From a virus: a stretch of 21,436 bases of DNA. The DNA lies in IMG/VR virus record IMGVR_UViG_3300006928_000118, positions 1-21,436 of that record. One strand, given 5' to 3'. Under the pieces are notes generated by a model, which was given only the letters and a program-made list of their open reading frames with translations, made no database searches and was not told the DNA's origin. Below are positions 15,582 to 21,146 of the stretch, piece after piece. The translations under genes and the position numbers were made by a program. Position 1 is the stretch's first letter. Each line of letters begins with the position of its first letter.

Positions 15582-15588
15582 AATATTA

Positions 15589-15612
15589 GGGGGTTGACAA
15601 CCTCCTTTTTTT
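15589..15612 (+). terminator. intrinsic terminator after the coiled-coil gene
   Basis: GGGGGTT (15589-15595), loop GAC, and AACCTCC (15599-15605) form a seven-pair stem with one G-U pair, extendable by an A-T pair, followed by seven T residues (15606-15612). It lies eight bases after the stop codon and is the only clear intrinsic terminator in the window. Confidence 0.78.
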
Positions 15613-15622: not shown

Positions 15623-15628
15623 ATATTT

Positions 15629-15827
15629 GTTGAGTTGACGAACCCAACATGGGAGTGACTGAATCAAACTTGCTGGCATAAGGCTAGTTAAGGTGATGCG
15701 TCAGGCGTGGTGGCCGCTAGGGGAGTCCCTAGAACTATCTTACCAGATAGGACGTAGACAGTGAGGTAAAAATCTACTAATGTAGCAATGCCCCTTACTT
15801 GTTGGTACACATTAATCCAACCTCCCA
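15629..15827 (+). ncRNA. structured non-coding RNA or 5' leader (candidate riboswitch-like element)
   Basis: This stretch has no gene but many complementary segments. TGGGAG (15650-15655) can pair with CTCCCA (15822-15827) as a closing stem. Within it: CTGGCAT (15673-15679) with ATGC (15696-15699) and CAG (15702-15704); CTAGGG/CCCTAG (15717-15732, loop GAGT); CTATCT/AGATAG (15735-15750, loop TACC); GTGAGG (15761-15766) with CCTTAC (15793-15798) enclosing CTAC/GTAG (15774-15785); GTTGG/CCAAC (15801-15821). A further hairpin lies at 15629-15648 (GTTGAGTT/AACCCAAC, one mismatch). The element ends just before a late promoter and precedes a fucosyltransferase. The wcaG RNA motif, known from cyanophages upstream of exopolysaccharide genes, is a candidate identity that I cannot confirm. 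tRNA is excluded: no T-loop or acceptor stem. Confidence 0.55.
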
Positions 15828-15828
15828 C

Positions 15829-15835
15829 CTAAATA
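15829..15835 (+). promoter_or_regulatory. late promoter element CTAAATA upstream of the glycan island
   Basis: CTAAATA lies 18 bases before ATG 15854 and directly after the last paired segment of the structured RNA. Late transcripts starting here would lack that RNA, unlike transcripts from the upstream sigma70-type promoter. Confidence 0.66.
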
Positions 15836-15853: not shown

Positions 15854-16690
15854 ATGATAGGTTTTAATGCACTGGGATATCTTGGACGTTTGGGAAATCA
15901 GATGTTCCAATATGCAGCACTAAAAGGTATTGCTAAGAATAAAGGATATCAATACTGCCTTCCACCAGTAGCAAGTGAGAATGAATGGAGCAGTGTTGAA
16001 GAATATTACCACGAAATAAATCAACGTAAAGCAGGTCATATATTATTTCATCCATTTATAATGGAAGGAAGTCATCAATTAAATCTTCAGTTTATTGATA
16101 AAAATCGTCCTGTTATAAATGAAAAGACATTTGCTTTTGATGAAGTACTCTTTAATACCTGTCCTGATTGGGTAGATATTAGAGGGTTTTTTCAAACAGA
16201 AAAGTATTTCAAACATATTAAGGATGAGATAAAAAAAGATTTCACGTTTAAAGATTCAATATTAGAACCATGTAAGGGAATGATAGATGACTTTAATGAA
16301 CCACCACTATCATTACATATTAGAAGAACCGATTATATAACGGATGCAAATCATACTGCTTTAGGAATTGATTATTATGAGAAAGCACTAGAAGAGTTTC
16401 CAATGGAAGTTCCTGTTCTGGTTTTTTCGGATGATCCTAAGTGGTGTAATGACCAAGAACTGTTTGATGATGATAGATTTTTGATTGCAGAAGGTAATAG
16501 TGGGTATGTTGATATGTGTTTGATGACTTTATGTTCAGGACATATTATTGCTAACTCTTCTTTCTCTTGGTGGGGTGCATGGTTATCTGATAGTAAACAA
16601 GTTGTTGCACCTTCTCAGTGGTTTACTGGATCTAATAATGACAGTAAAGATACTAAGGACATTTATTGTGAGGGGTGGAAAATTATCTAA
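15854..16690 (+). CDS. GT11 alpha-1,2-fucosyltransferase
   Basis: GT11 enzymes move L-fucose from GDP-fucose to the 2-hydroxyl of a galactose, making H-antigen-type ends. The 278-residue protein has all expected motifs: GRLGNQMFQYA at 11-21; HIRRTDY at 155-161, where the double arginine contacts GDP-fucose; VFSDDPKWC at 190-198; and IIANSSFSWWGAWL at 231-244. Length is usual for bacterial GT11 proteins, and there is no membrane anchor, so it should act in the cytoplasm on lipid-linked or nucleotide-linked sugars. It is the first gene of a glycan operon behind both an early-type and a late-type promoter. Its TAA shares a base with the next ATG. The acceptor cannot be read from sequence. Confidence 0.92.
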   Translation: MIGFNALGYLGRLGNQMFQYAALKGIAKNKGYQYCLPPVASENEWSSVEEYYHEINQRKAGHILFHPFIMEGSHQLNLQFIDKNRPVINEKTFAFDEVLFNTCPDWVDIRGFFQTEKYFKHIKDEIKKDFTFKDSILEPCKGMIDDFNEPPLSLHIRRTDYITDANHTALGIDYYEKALEEFPMEVPVLVFSDDPKWCNDQELFDDDRFLIAEGNSGYVDMCLMTLCSGHIIANSSFSWWGAWLSDSKQVVAPSQWFTGSNNDSKDTKDIYCEGWKII

Positions 16691-17217
16691 TGCTTAATAC
16701 TTTTTCTTTGTTTTCTATTAATGGTTATAGAGTAAATATAAAAGATTGGTCTAAAAAACATAGAGATCGTATACTAGATTTAGTTCCTGATGTTCAGAAG
16801 CAATCTAATATAGGATCTCGAATACATTATACTGATTATCATAATAGTACACTACCTCCATATCATAGTGAATTAATGAAGGTATTGACACCATATCTTG
16901 AAGATTTTTTAAAAGAGAATGGAATAAATCATATAGCAACATTATGGTGTCAGAAGTATAAATCTGGGGATTATCATCCACCACATGATCATGGATCTAC
17001 TGGTTTTTCTGCTGTTTTATATGCTAAACTAGATTCAGATGTTCATCCTAGTACACTATTCTTTCCACCTTTTCCTTCAGAGAACGGAACTAAAGTATCT
17101 AAATCTTTTCGAGTAGAAGAAGGTGATTTAATTATTTTCCCTGCTCATGTTCTTCACATGGCTCCTCCTCATTATGATGATAAAATGCGTGTGATTTTTT
17201 CTTTTAATTTAATTTAA
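16690..17217 (+). CDS. 2-oxoglutarate/Fe(II)-dependent oxygenase
   Basis: From ATG 16690 (TAATG overlap) the product has 175 residues. The iron-binding facial triad is visible: HPPHDHG at 96-102 gives the first histidine and aspartate, and H156 in FPAHVLHMAPP the distal histidine. R167 in KMRVIFSFNL is the likely 2-oxoglutarate ligand. GFSAVLYAKL is the core strand. This is the short phage type related to the putative 2OG-Fe(II) oxygenase family common in marine phages. In this operon a sugar or lipid hydroxylation is plausible, but related phage enzymes sit in many contexts, so the substrate is open. A start at 16675 would overlap the fucosyltransferase gene and is not needed. Confidence 0.83.
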   Translation: MLNTFSLFSINGYRVNIKDWSKKHRDRILDLVPDVQKQSNIGSRIHYTDYHNSTLPPYHSELMKVLTPYLEDFLKENGINHIATLWCQKYKSGDYHPPHDHGSTGFSAVLYAKLDSDVHPSTLFFPPFPSENGTKVSKSFRVEEGDLIIFPAHVLHMAPPHYDDKMRVIFSFNLI

Positions 17218-17939
17218 TGAAAGTTGCAATTACATTTATAGGTACTAACAAGTATCTTGATTTTTTACCACAGTATTATGAAAACATAGAGAAGTATTTT
17301 CTTCCTAATAGTGAGAAAGTTATTCTTGCTTTTACTGATGGAGAACTAGATGATGTGCCACGCAATCTTAAGGTCTATAAGCAAGAGCATTTAGATTGGC
17401 CTTATATTACTCTTAAAAGATTTGAGATCATTAATAAGGCAAGAGATGTTATTGAAGAATGTGATTGGTTAGTTTTTATAGATGCTGATGCACTAGTTGT
17501 AGATTATATAAGTGAATATGAATTTTTTAATTTTACCAAACCTTTATTTGGTGTACATCATCCATGTCATGCTCTTGGTATGGAACCCCATACTAAAGCA
17601 CCAGGTGCATATGAGCAAAATCCTAAGTGTGAAGCCTATGTAGATACTTCTAAAGGACTGCCTCCTGTTTATTGGCAAGGATGTTTCTGGGGTGGTAAAG
17701 TTCCTGAAGTATGTGATATGATAGATGAGTTAGAAGCAAGAGTTAATCGTGATTTAGAAAATGATATTGTTGCTGTGTGGCATGATGAAACACAGATCAA
17801 TAGATACTTTTTAGAAAGAACTCAAGATGTACATACCTTTGGTCCTGAGTTTGCATTCCCTGAAGTATTTGAAGCACAATGTAACTTTTCTCCAAAAATC
17901 GTTCATCTTGCAAAAGATAACTCTAAATATCACAGGTAA
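17217..17939 (+). CDS. GT6 glycosyltransferase (ABO blood-group / alpha-1,3-Gal(NAc) transferase family)
   Basis: GT6 enzymes add galactose or GalNAc in alpha-1,3 linkage, keeping the donor configuration. The 240-residue protein has the family signature in order: WPYITLKRFEII at 61-72, the metal-binding DAD at 89-91 in FIDADALVV, FGVHHPCH at 111-118, YWQGCFWGG at 152-160, and VWHDETQINRYFLE with the catalytic HDE at 189-191. It lacks the N-terminal membrane anchor of animal enzymes and matches the short catalytic-core form of bacteria. Bacterial relatives often have NxN in place of DxD; DxD is retained here. A GT6 gene in cyanophage P-SSM2 has been described. It begins one base into the previous stop codon. 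GT6 animal enzymes use Fuc-alpha-1,2-Gal acceptors, which the GT11 enzyme two genes upstream could make. Confidence 0.9.
   Translation: MKVAITFIGTNKYLDFLPQYYENIEKYFLPNSEKVILAFTDGELDDVPRNLKVYKQEHLDWPYITLKRFEIINKARDVIEECDWLVFIDADALVVDYISEYEFFNFTKPLFGVHHPCHALGMEPHTKAPGAYEQNPKCEAYVDTSKGLPPVYWQGCFWGGKVPEVCDMIDELEARVNRDLENDIVAVWHDETQINRYFLERTQDVHTFGPEFAFPEVFEAQCNFSPKIVHLAKDNSKYHR
17923..17929 (+). promoter_or_regulatory. late-promoter-like CTAAATA inside the end of the GT6 gene
   Basis: CTAAATA overlaps the last codons of GT6 and ends 19 bases before ATG 17949, a spacing close to that of the other late promoters. It could give the methyltransferase genes a separate late transcript. Confidence 0.48.
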
Positions 17940-17948
17940 ATAAATTTT

Positions 17949-18617
17949 ATGTCACTTTGTAATCGTTTTATTAGAATCTCGGATATTCCAAAAGCAAGGA
18001 GGTTGAGAGATGGTCATAATTGGATTCACAAATATCCACATCTAACCAGTTTGGGTAACCATTGGGATAGAGATGAAGCACTATTGAAGTGGGTATTTGC
18101 ACTATGTAACTTTGGTATAGGGGAGAGTGGTAAAAAGGTAATAGATTTAGGAACAAACAATGGTTGTGTCCCTCATGTAGTTGCAGACTGGGGTAATGAA
18201 ACAATCGCAATGGATTGTATTAATCCAGACTATCCACCCCCACCATCTGCTTGTACTATGCTAGTGGCAGATGCTTTTAAGTGGTTGGCAGAGTTGGAAG
18301 AAGAAAGTATTGATGTTGTATTTGATATCTGTGCAGTTCATCTTTTTGATATTACACATGATGATGAGATTGGTAACTATGGACTATTCAATATTGGTAA
18401 ATTAGTTCACCGTGTCCTTAAAAAGGGTGGTAGAATGATTATATCATCTGATGCTGGTGATGAAGATCATGGCGAGTTCTCTAATGCAGAGACCTTTATT
18501 AAGATGATTGAGAAGTCTGGGTTAAAACTGACTTCTCCTTTTGACTATACAGTTGATGATGATACATTTTATAGTCACCCATACAAAGTTGTTTCATTAG
18601 TATTTGAAAAAGTATGA
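17949..18617 (+). CDS. SAM-dependent methyltransferase (class I)
   Basis: The 222-residue protein has the class I fold. Motif I is VIDLGTNNG at 64-72, which binds the amino-acid end of SAM. An acidic residue follows at the end of strand 2 (AMDCINPDY), then LVADAFKW as motif II/III, FDICAVHLFDI as motif IV, and LKKGGRMIISSD as the post-motif. No N-terminal anchor is seen. Its place between a glycosyltransferase and a TylF-type enzyme suggests sugar methylation, though the substrate is not defined by sequence. The stop overlaps the next start as ATGA. It is separated from GT6 by a nine-base gap, one of the few breaks in the operon. Confidence 0.84.
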   Translation: MSLCNRFIRISDIPKARRLRDGHNWIHKYPHLTSLGNHWDRDEALLKWVFALCNFGIGESGKKVIDLGTNNGCVPHVVADWGNETIAMDCINPDYPPPPSACTMLVADAFKWLAELEEESIDVVFDICAVHLFDITHDDEIGNYGLFNIGKLVHRVLKKGGRMIISSDAGDEDHGEFSNAETFIKMIEKSGLKLTSPFDYTVDDDTFYSHPYKVVSLVFEKV

Positions 18618-19312
18618 ATTTAAAAGATTTAGAACTGGTCAATGCCCTTGACCAGAGTTTTTATGATGGTTTTAATTCTTTTATGTTGAGTTCCGACTTA
18701 AAAGTATTCGGAAAACTATTAGCACGTACTCAATTATTTGATAAGGTAAAGGATATACCAGGTGACATCGTTGAGTGTGGAGTATTTAAAGGAACAGGTC
18801 TCTTTACTTTCTTAAAGTTAAAGAGATATTTTTGTCCTAATACAGGTAAGAAAATTATTGGATTTGATTTTTTTGATTCGGAGAAGTTGACTTCTAGTTT
18901 ATCTGAACAGGATAAAGAAGCAATGACGACTTTATTTGAGGGTAGAAACTTTCAACACGAGTCCTCATTCCAAACTGAACTTGATTATACTATCCGTAAG
19001 TCTGGTTTTGAGGATCATGAATATGAACTTATAGGTGGTGATATATCGAAAACTGTGGTAGAATTTGTATCACAAAGACCTGGTGCAAAGATTTCACTAT
19101 TGTATCTGGATTTGGATTTAGATGCTCCTACTTATGATACTCTTGTAGCATTGTGGGATAGGGTCAGTAGTGGGGGTATAGTTGTCTTTGATGAGTATGC
19201 TTTCCATAACTGGTCTGAATCTGTTGGTGTTGATAGATTCTTTGCTGATAAAGATATTAACATTGAATCTCTTAACTTTGTTGCACCTTCTGCTTACGTT
19301 GTAAAACCATGA
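18614..19312 (+). CDS. TylF/macrocin-type O-methyltransferase
   Basis: TylF-family enzymes put a methyl group on sugar hydroxyls using SAM and a divalent metal. The 232-residue protein shows GDIVECGVFKGTG at 50-62 (SAM-binding loop), IIGFDFFDSE at 81-90, the metal-binding LLYLDLDLDAPTYDTL, and GGIVVFDEYAFHNW. The acidic D-L-D-x-D run and the later FDEY are the family metal ligands. Phage and marine bacterial relatives usually sit in surface polysaccharide clusters, as here. The gene overlaps its neighbours by four bases at both ends. With the preceding methyltransferase it suggests a glycan bearing two methyl groups, or methylation of two sugars. Confidence 0.86.
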   Translation: MNLKDLELVNALDQSFYDGFNSFMLSSDLKVFGKLLARTQLFDKVKDIPGDIVECGVFKGTGLFTFLKLKRYFCPNTGKKIIGFDFFDSEKLTSSLSEQDKEAMTTLFEGRNFQHESSFQTELDYTIRKSGFEDHEYELIGGDISKTVVEFVSQRPGAKISLLYLDLDLDAPTYDTLVALWDRVSSGGIVVFDEYAFHNWSESVGVDRFFADKDINIESLNFVAPSAYVVKP

Positions 19313-20679
19313 ACAAACTTGTCATCTTTGATTTAGATGGTGTCCTTATTGATAGTAGGGATATGCATTATGATGCACTTAACCGTGCTCTTGCAAAGGT
19401 AGATGAAAAGTATGTCATAACAAGAGAAGAACATCTAAGTGCCTATGATGGTTTACCAACTACAAGAAAACTAGAACTCCTTACAGAGAAGAAAGGTTTA
19501 CCAGTAGTTGAGTATGATAATATCTGGCAAGATAAACAGACAGCAACTCTGGATATATTCTCTGAATTAAAACCAGACTATGAGTTAATGCATTATTTTC
19601 AGCAACTCAAAGATAAAGGATATAGTATTGCAGTTGCTAGTAATAGTGTACGTAATACTGTTAAACTTGTTCTACTTCGTCTAGGTTTATTAGAGTTTGT
19701 TCATTATTACTTAAGTAATGAAGATGTGTTCAGAAGTAAACCATTCCCTGAAATGTACTGGCGATGTATGATTGCCTGTAATGCTCTTCCAAAAGATACT
19801 GTTATCTTTGAAGACAGTCATATTGGTAGGCAGGGTGCATTAGATAGTGGTTCTCATCTAATTGCAATTGAAGATAGACCTGATCTTGACCAGAGTAAGA
19901 TTGATAAGGTCTTTAAGATCCTTGACACTCAAAAAGTAACACACATCCCTTGGAAATCAGAAAAAATGAATGTTTTAATTCCTATGGCAGGTGCTGGCAG
20001 TCGCTTTGCACAAGTTGGATATAGTTTTCCTAAACCTTTAATTGAGGTTAATGGTAAACCAATGATACAAGTCGTGTTGGAGAACCTTAATATTGAGGCA
20101 AACTATACCTTTGTTGTCCGTAAGGAGCATTATGAGAAGTATAGTTTGCAGTATCTACTAACTTTGATTGCACCTAACTGTAACATTGTACAGGTTGATG
20201 AATTGACAGAGGGTTCTGCTTGTACTACGATGTTAGCAAAAGAATTTATTAATAATGATGATCCTCTTCTCCTTGCCAACTCCGATCAGTTTATGGAGTG
20301 GAATAGTAATGAGTCTTTGTATGCTTTTAATGCTGATGGTATTGATGGGGGTATATTAACTTTTAAAGCAACTCATCCCAAGTGGTCTTATGCAAAGGTA
20401 GGTAAAGATGGATTTGTATCAGAAGTGGCAGAGAAGAAACCAATTAGTGATGATGCTACTGTTGGCGTATATTATTGGAAGAAAGGTTCTGATTATGTAA
20501 AATATACAGAGCAAATGATTGAGAAGGATATTAGAACCAATGGTGAGTTTTATATCTGCCCAGTATTCAATGAAGCAATTGCTGATGGTAAGAAGATAAG
20601 AATCAAAGAGATAGAAAGGATGTGGGGTATAGGAACTCCTGAAGATTTATCTTATTACTTAGAACATTATAAAGGATGA
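19309..20679 (+). CDS. fusion of HAD phosphatase and sugar nucleotidyltransferase
   Basis: The 456-residue protein joins two domains. Residues 1 to about 205 are a beta-phosphoglucomutase-like HAD hydrolase: nucleophile D8 and D10 in FDLDGVLIDS, SNS at 111-113 as motif II, K144 in RSKPFPE, and FEDSHIGRQGA at 167-177 as motif III/IV. From about M220 begins a nucleotidyltransferase: MNVLIPMAGAGSRFAQVG with the GxGxRF nucleotide loop, FPKPLIEVNGKPMI with the substrate lysine, SDQF as the metal-binding Asp, and a terminal WGIGTPEDL. Together they could remove a phosphate from a sugar phosphate and activate a sugar to its NDP form, as in heptose or mannose-type routes. The donor and the sugar are unknown. 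Fusion ensures equal amounts. It overlaps its neighbours by four bases. Confidence 0.88.
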   Translation: MNKLVIFDLDGVLIDSRDMHYDALNRALAKVDEKYVITREEHLSAYDGLPTTRKLELLTEKKGLPVVEYDNIWQDKQTATLDIFSELKPDYELMHYFQQLKDKGYSIAVASNSVRNTVKLVLLRLGLLEFVHYYLSNEDVFRSKPFPEMYWRCMIACNALPKDTVIFEDSHIGRQGALDSGSHLIAIEDRPDLDQSKIDKVFKILDTQKVTHIPWKSEKMNVLIPMAGAGSRFAQVGYSFPKPLIEVNGKPMIQVVLENLNIEANYTFVVRKEHYEKYSLQYLLTLIAPNCNIVQVDELTEGSACTTMLAKEFINNDDPLLLANSDQFMEWNSNESLYAFNADGIDGGILTFKATHPKWSYAKVGKDGFVSEVAEKKPISDDATVGVYYWKKGSDYVKYTEQMIEKDIRTNGEFYICPVFNEAIADGKKIRIKEIERMWGIGTPEDLSYYLEHYKG

Positions 20680-21146
20680 AACTAATTGCTCATAGAGGTA
20701 ATACACACGGACCTGATGAGGACAAAGAAAACCATCCTGATTACATTGATAAATGTTTATCGGAGGGATTTGATGCTGAAATTGATGCTAGATATGATTC
20801 AATAACTAACGTCTTTTGGTTAGGTCATGATGAACCCCAGTACAAGGTAAGTTGGAAGTGGATGGCAAATCGTCACGAACTTCTATGGATACACTGTAAA
20901 GATATTACAACTTTACATGAGTTTGCTAAGTATAATGCCAGTAAAACTTATAATTTCTTTTGGCATCAAGAAGATGACTTTACTTTAACAAGTCATAATT
21001 ATATTTGGACATTTCCTGCTAAACCTTATACTCCCAAATCAATCATTGTTATGCCTGAATGGAATACTAAAGTTAGTAATTTAAGTGATTGGAGAGCAGT
21101 TAATTGTTTTGGAATCTGTAGTGACTATGTGGGGCATTTAAAATGA
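20676..21146 (+). CDS. short glycerophosphodiester phosphodiesterase-like (GDPD-like) protein
   Basis: The 156-residue protein starts LIAHRGNTHGPDEDKENHP. H6-R7, E35 and D37 (AEIDAR) and H51 (LGHDEPQY) match the N-terminal catalytic residues of GDPD barrel enzymes. The usual family length is about 240-250, so about a third of the barrel is missing at the C-terminal side. This short form is a recurrent companion of HAD and nucleotidyltransferase genes in marine bacteria and phages, so it is probably a distinct complete family rather than a damaged gene. A role in phosphodiester-linked sugar metabolism is a guess from context. It overlaps both neighbours by four bases, which argues for a functional gene. 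Confidence 0.8.
   Translation: MKLIAHRGNTHGPDEDKENHPDYIDKCLSEGFDAEIDARYDSITNVFWLGHDEPQYKVSWKWMANRHELLWIHCKDITTLHEFAKYNASKTYNFFWHQEDDFTLTSHNYIWTFPAKPYTPKSIIVMPEWNTKVSNLSDWRAVNCFGICSDYVGHLK

Follow-up and report, generated by a model that had tools for sequence, protein, structure and literature searches.

Many marine cyanophages carry a gene for a GT6 glycosyltransferase as the constant companion of a gene for a GT11 fucosyltransferase: wherever the dependence was testable, in 80 IMG/VR loci and 27 whole genomes, no GT6 gene was found without GT11. We detected this pair in a 21,436-base IMG/VR record, referred to here in its full length as the window. This one-way dependence, the adjacency of the two genes through rearrangement, and the existence of gmd–fcl–GT11–GT6 cassettes together make it very likely that both enzymes serve the same fucose-containing glycan pathway. 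The window is a fragment of a T4-like marine cyanophage, and its nearest records were single-cell marine virus contigs and P-SSM2, all of them marine cyanophage genomes. The phage origin given in the initial annotation was thereby confirmed, and its gene coordinates were correct.

The operon and its two glycosyltransferases

The coordinates of the operon and its flanking features are given in Table 1. The initial annotation had described GT11, an oxygenase, and GT6 as one tight operon, in agreement with the 1-nt stop/start overlaps (TAATG) at 16690 (GT11/oxygenase) and 17217 (oxygenase/GT6), which resemble those of translationally coupled operons. The oxygenase ORF as listed starts with GTG at 16675, and the ATG at 16690 is the likelier start. 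In DSL-LC03, the gene in the position of the small conserved protein is annotated as a glycerophosphodiester phosphodiesterase.

Table 1. Features of the GT11–GT6 operon and its surroundings in the window
Feature	Coordinates	Strand	Evidence and remarks
Terminator-like hairpin with T-run	15588–15606	+	Ends the previous unit; consensus scan only
manA RNA (RF01745), candidate riboswitch/cis-regulatory leader	15628–15831	+	160.9 bits, full length
GT11 fucosyltransferase, 278 aa	15854–16690	+	PF01531, phrog_2644, GT11 motifs, structure model
2OG-Fe(II) oxygenase, lineage-specific insert	16690–17217	+	PF13759 (2e-10), phrog_81 (5e-37)
GT6 transferase, 240 aa; DAD 89–91, QGC 154–156, WHDE 188–191, K233	17217–17939	+	PF03414, phrog_3317, structure model
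SAM-dependent methyltransferase, downstream cluster	17949–18617	+	PF13847 at cut-off; homologs in 20 GT6 loci
TylF-like methyltransferase	18614–19312	+	PF05711 (6e-12)
HAD hydrolase fused to sugar nucleotidyltransferase	19309–20679	+	PF13419 (1e-24), PF00483 (8e-12); homologs in 40 GT6 loci
Small conserved protein	20676–21146	+	phrog_34507; without Pfam match
Beginning of next gene, truncated at contig end	21143–21436	+	phrog_13607, function unassigned

Profile searches upheld both family assignments. The GT11 ORF matched Glyco_transf_11 (PF01531; 1.7e-25, 90.4 bits against a cut-off of 23.9) and phrog_2644 (4e-112), and the GT6 ORF matched Glyco_transf_6 (PF03414; 3.2e-21, 75.9 bits against a cut-off of 25) and phrog_3317 (1e-100). 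The GT6 protein also matched NCBIfam NF041524 (1e-49) with 169 bits, below the curated cut-off of 250. For GT11, a sequence search of the PDB returned no significant relative; its structure model (pLDDT 94.3) matched the GT-B fucosyltransferases FUT8, POFUT1, NodZ, and plant FUT1. Residues H155, R157, R158, D160, NQMFQ 15–19, and S238–W240 were invariant across 65 aligned GT11 sequences, all 65 of which keep the HxRRxD motif, and this layout agrees with the published description of the family (PMC8439653). The linkage formed is likely α-1,2, a prediction from sequence that falls short of certainty because one GT11 enzyme forms an α-1,3 linkage (PMC4202792).

Relatives of GT6 with solved structures were BoGT6a (3.8e-23) and human ABO (about 2e-20). 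Its structure model (pLDDT 95.6) adopts the GT-A fold and superposes on BoGT6a with Z 32.2 and an rmsd of 1.4 Å over 223 residues, and on ABO with Z of about 27. With the phage GT6 profile, BoGT6a (206 bits) and ABO (about 133 bits), both users of fucosylated acceptors, outscored α-1,3-galactosyltransferase (100 bits). All but one of 82 distinct GT6 sequences retain the DxD and WHDE motifs, and the exception has a gap at that place. Retention of DxD (as DAD) suggests that the enzyme is probably metal-dependent; bacterial GT6 proteins mostly carry NxN rather than DxD (PMC3961637). We expect the enzyme to be a retaining transferase, probably one that adds a hexose or HexNAc in α-1,3 linkage.

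The donor and acceptor sites of this GT6 clade depart from those described before. Characterized vertebrate GT6 enzymes have the donor tripeptides LGG/AGG, MGA, GGA, or HAA (PMC6351642), whereas the phage clade has QGC in 80 of its 81 readable distinct sequences. QGC differs from the ABO-type tripeptides at positions 266–268 (LGG/AGG, MGA) and matches no characterized GT6. Where ABO has His-Pro-Gly/Ser, the phage enzymes have His-Pro-Cys, and across the clade the acceptor-contact Thr is replaced by Ala/Ser and a 4-residue insertion after the HHPCH motif alters the acceptor loop. The residue at human position 268 is larger than Gly and the residue at 266 is polar, which would favor UDP-Gal over UDP-GalNAc as the donor; we offer this as a guess of low confidence.

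The initial annotation had counted the oxygenase as a member of the pathway, a view that the relatives did not support. Most of them have no gene between GT11 and GT6; in the others this slot is occupied by methyltransferases (some of the FkbM type), an oxygenase, an NAD-dependent epimerase, or what may be a sulfotransferase. A close homolog of the window's oxygenase lies between the pair only in the near-identical L026, and a different oxygenase fills the slot in L035. Given this mostly empty or variable slot, the oxygenase is not needed for the pair, and we rejected it as an obligatory third step. It may nevertheless modify the glycan; many oxygenases of the 2OG-Fe(II) kind occur in cyanophages (PMC3037559).

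The manA RNA leader scored far above its gathering score of 55.2, stops 22 nt short of the GT11 start codon, and was conserved in 8 of the 11 close relatives examined. manA RNA, a candidate riboswitch, has been reported from cyanophages and marine sequences, where it precedes genes of mannose or fructose metabolism as well as others (PMC2864571). Since several other cyanophages have it far from the GT11–GT6 pair, or have it and no GT11 at all, we did not retain it as a dedicated regulator of the pathway. In one relative, a tRNA gene lies between the manA RNA and GT11 (L002:5105–5177). The motif CTAAATA, which resembles the T4-type late-promoter motif, occurs at window position 15829, 25 nt upstream of the first GT11 codon, and at five other sites.

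Co-occurrence of GT11, GT6, and the fucose-supply genes

A GT6 profile search of IMG/VR yielded 259 relatives, and among the best 80 of these loci GT11 was nearby in 75; the other five are truncated by the end of their contig close to GT6. A wider dereplicated set gave GT11 with GT6 in 97 of 101 loci, but that set was partly found via GT11 and a few of its entries are fragments of one locus, which makes 75/80 the less biased figure. Of 27 whole genomes of cyanophages, 14 encode GT6, and each of these has exactly one GT11, either next to GT6 or within about 1.5 kb of it. Another eight have between one and four GT11 genes but lack GT6, and five classic cyanophages serving as controls had neither. 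The non-control genomes were chosen for having GT6 or GT11, and these counts thus bear on dependence and not on prevalence. When IMG/VR loci were selected by GT11 instead (n = 80), 42 had GT6 and 38 did not. By our own arithmetic, chance would place one GT11 within 1.5 kb on either side of GT6 in a genome of about 190 kb in about 1.6% of cases. The recurrence of the pair in 75 of 80 GT6 loci argues against chance, and the one-way dependence, in which GT6 occurs only with GT11 and not the reverse, fits an enzyme acting after GT11.

Co-conservation in related phages had been set beforehand as a test that could refute the pairing; the pair withstood it in both the GT6 loci and the GT6 genomes. 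The rarity that the initial annotation had ascribed to GT6 was not borne out, with 71 phage records and 259 IMG/VR stretches carrying it and its presence in cyanophages known since 2014, when two such phages were noted (PMC3961637). In GT11-only cyanophages such as those at L230, L235, L238, and L240, GT11 is often present in two or three copies with one other gene of about 0.8 kb between them, an arrangement that is perhaps an alternative module.

The pair has stayed together through changes of order and of partner. GT11 lies downstream rather than upstream of GT6 in two separate clades of the GT6 tree, from which GT11 appears to have changed side at least twice with the pair intact. The GT11 genes that accompany GT6 do not form one clade: their tree shows 10 label changes, at least five of them forced by well-supported branches, although both the GT6 and the GT11 tree come from quick searches and contain long bacterial branches, which makes deep placement uncertain. 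A second, distinct phage GT6 lineage, comprising P-SSM2 (L114:17262–17957) and L252, lacks the loop insertion and has the tripeptide AGG, which is also that of BoGT6a and of many A transferases. The P-SSM2 protein carries a DVD motif, and in both members of this lineage GT11 is found about 1.3–1.5 kb away. Between the window and the otherwise syntenic L002, L032, and L034, protein identity was 59–68% for GT11 versus 85–99% for GT6 and the next three genes. At fourfold sites the signal was weaker (60–65% versus 65–84%), and for this reason we do not claim recombination as the source of a rapid GT11 replacement within the conserved operon.

We also searched bacteria for the pair. GT6 was found within about 2 kb in 5 of 80 bacterial GT11 loci, two of the five being near-duplicates. 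Contigs of bacterial and archaeal genomes, scanned for the sequence pattern, contained no phage-type GT6, and a host origin of this type was set aside on that result. Of 386 Cyanobacteriota genomes, 10 have a GT6; the eight sequences read are of the NxN type and come from low-GC genomes of 1.7–2.1 Mb. At two Cyanobacteriota loci (L289 and L292), in low-GC genomes of gut-type appearance, an NxN-type GT6 adjoins GT11.

Genes for fucose supply extend the pair to a four-gene cassette. The order gmd–fcl–GT11–GT6 was found in 19 non-redundant loci, in 10 of which (L003, L014, L038, L039, L043, L049, L052, L053, L055, and L079) the gaps are below 70 nt with no intervening gene; L035 has the same order except that a single 2OG oxygenase gene separates GT11 from GT6. 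At the genome level, where we required gmd over its curated cut-off and a strong fcl match (390–473 bits, below the curated 500), both genes were present in 8 of 14 GT6 genomes, 3 of 8 GT11-only genomes, and none of the 5 controls, and a clear gmd–fcl set was absent from the other 6 GT6 genomes. The 21,436-base window contains neither gene. In L032 and L034, whose gene order follows that of the window from talC through the downstream cluster, gmd–fcl starts 5.5 kb past GT6; because the window stops 3.5 kb past GT6, we predict gmd–fcl about 2 kb beyond the contig end. The cassette in relatives also makes it highly probable that GT11 uses GDP-L-fucose, a donor that we infer from this gene order. 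Functional coupling of the two transferases is likely, given that GT6 never occurs without GT11, GT11 occurs without GT6, and such cassettes exist.

A proposed pathway and its alternatives

We propose that the window operon belongs to a glycan cassette of cyanophages. In many relatives, gmd and fcl would convert host GDP-mannose to GDP-L-fucose, from which GT11 would transfer fucose onto a glycan, probably in α-1,2 linkage. GT6 would then act on the fucosylated glycan in a metal-dependent step, adding a hexose or HexNAc, probably in α-1,3 linkage; which sugar it adds is a guess. This two-step logic would be that of the conversion of blood-group H to A/B, or of the E. coli O86 O-antigen. The carrier would most likely be the envelope polysaccharide (LPS or exopolysaccharide) of the infected host. 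As an overall account, fucosylation by GT11 followed by GT6 on a host-envelope glycan is the explanation we moderately favor. We infer the shared glycan and the order of action from the co-occurrence pattern above, and hold it somewhat probable, as the simplest interpretation, that GT6 acts on the fucosylated product of GT11. That the product is a true A or B trisaccharide is doubtful, given the unprecedented QGC, the replacement of the contact Thr by Ala/Ser, and the insertion in the acceptor loop.

The same features of the acceptor site, the loop and the contact Thr, are unlike those of known users of Fuc-α-1,2-Gal and would suit a different arrangement, in which GT11 and GT6 serve different residues of one surface polysaccharide and neither needs the product of the other. 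Neighboring genes in O-antigen-type clusters often work on different residues, which lends this arrangement some plausibility. It would not, however, require the dependence of GT6 on GT11 that was observed, and the pair survives rearrangement and partner change; we regard it as rather unlikely. A more radical alternative, which has been considered for the LPS clusters of cyanophages (PMC3037559), is that the genes act only as filler in headful packaging and perform no function under selection. Cluster content does differ among phages, but the near-universal retention of DxD and WHDE in GT6 (81/82) and of HxRRxD in GT11 (65/65), and the persistence of the pair through rearrangements, make this highly improbable.

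The location of the glycan is a separate question. The pair could decorate the virion, at a tail fiber or the capsid, and in ACG-2014f a tail-fiber gene does lie about 5.5 kb from GT6, while the cluster content would fit either target. Nevertheless, the nearby epimerases, methyltransferases, nucleotidyltransferases, and annotated capsular polysaccharide biosynthesis protein look more like an envelope-polysaccharide set, and the literature reads such phage clusters as LPS clusters (PMC3037559, PMC9602691), so that decoration of the virion appears improbable. A glycan on the host surface rather than the virion is fairly probable, the envelope itself being a guess drawn from cluster content only. 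Against the proposal, Snyder 2009 (cited in PMC4390846) calls the LPS of marine Synechococcus compositionally simple in its title, which leaves no known natural acceptor; the 6 GT6 genomes with no clear gmd–fcl set likewise count against it.

Taken in its fullest form, the host-envelope pathway would give T4-like cyanophages a self-contained gmd/fcl/GT11/GT6 route to a blood-group-like, fucosylated, and α-capped glycan on the surface of picocyanobacteria, with a QGC GT6 whose donor or acceptor specificity is new among studied GT6 enzymes acting in a switch of host antigen during infection; we advance this only tentatively. If true, cyanophages, which are very abundant at sea, would use enzymes of their own to assemble a histo-blood-group-like structure, and the cyanophage "LPS genes", long known but without a functional explanation, would gain a concrete product. 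The structure could mark infected cells in a way detectable by lectin or mass spectrometry. A DxD-bearing GT6 clade with a distinct predicted donor pocket would also inform the evolution of GT6 specificity.

Comparison with known systems

Parts of this picture have been described before. Phage records already annotate the GT6 and GT11 families, P-SSM2 being annotated with both, and GT11 together with GDP-fucose genes has been reported in cyanophages, as in S-SCSM1 with gmd, fcl, and GT11 (PMC9602691). Our literature search found no description of the rule that governs the pairing, of the cassette of four genes, or of a GT6 clade with QGC, a weak negative in that most subscription journals lay outside its scope. 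The cyanophage LPS gene clusters of P-SSM2, S-SSM7, S-SM2, and S-SCSM1 (PMC9602691, PMC3037559) are clusters of the same kind as that of the window, from which the present account differs in the pairing rule, the cassette, and the blood-group-like logic, none of which appeared in the papers found.

The closest functional parallel is the E. coli O86 O-antigen, in which an α-1,2-fucosyltransferase (GT11) and WbnI (GT6) produce a blood-group-B-type epitope (PMC4202792). The phage pair belongs to the same two CAZy families and would likewise serve a Gram-negative surface glycan, with fucosylation preceding the GT6 step. Unlike the O86 pair, that of the window is phage-borne, its GT6 has DAD where most bacterial GT6 proteins have NxN and QGC as its donor tripeptide, its product is a prediction, and in many phages gmd–fcl lies in the same operon. 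BoGT6a from Bacteroides ovatus (PDB 4AYJ) is the closest solved structure, with about 31% identity, and shares WHDE and the C-terminal Lys with the phage GT6. It is metal-independent (NAN), has AGG, and transfers GalNAc to 2'-fucosyllactose (PMC3961637), whereas the phage enzyme has DAD and QGC, carries the insertion in its acceptor loop, and is shorter at the C-terminus. Human ABO, at about 27% identity, resembles the phage GT6 in its fold, DxD, WHDE, and an HP motif followed by a small residue, but has LGG or MGA at 266–268 in place of QGC, and a Golgi anchor and stem that the phage enzyme lacks.
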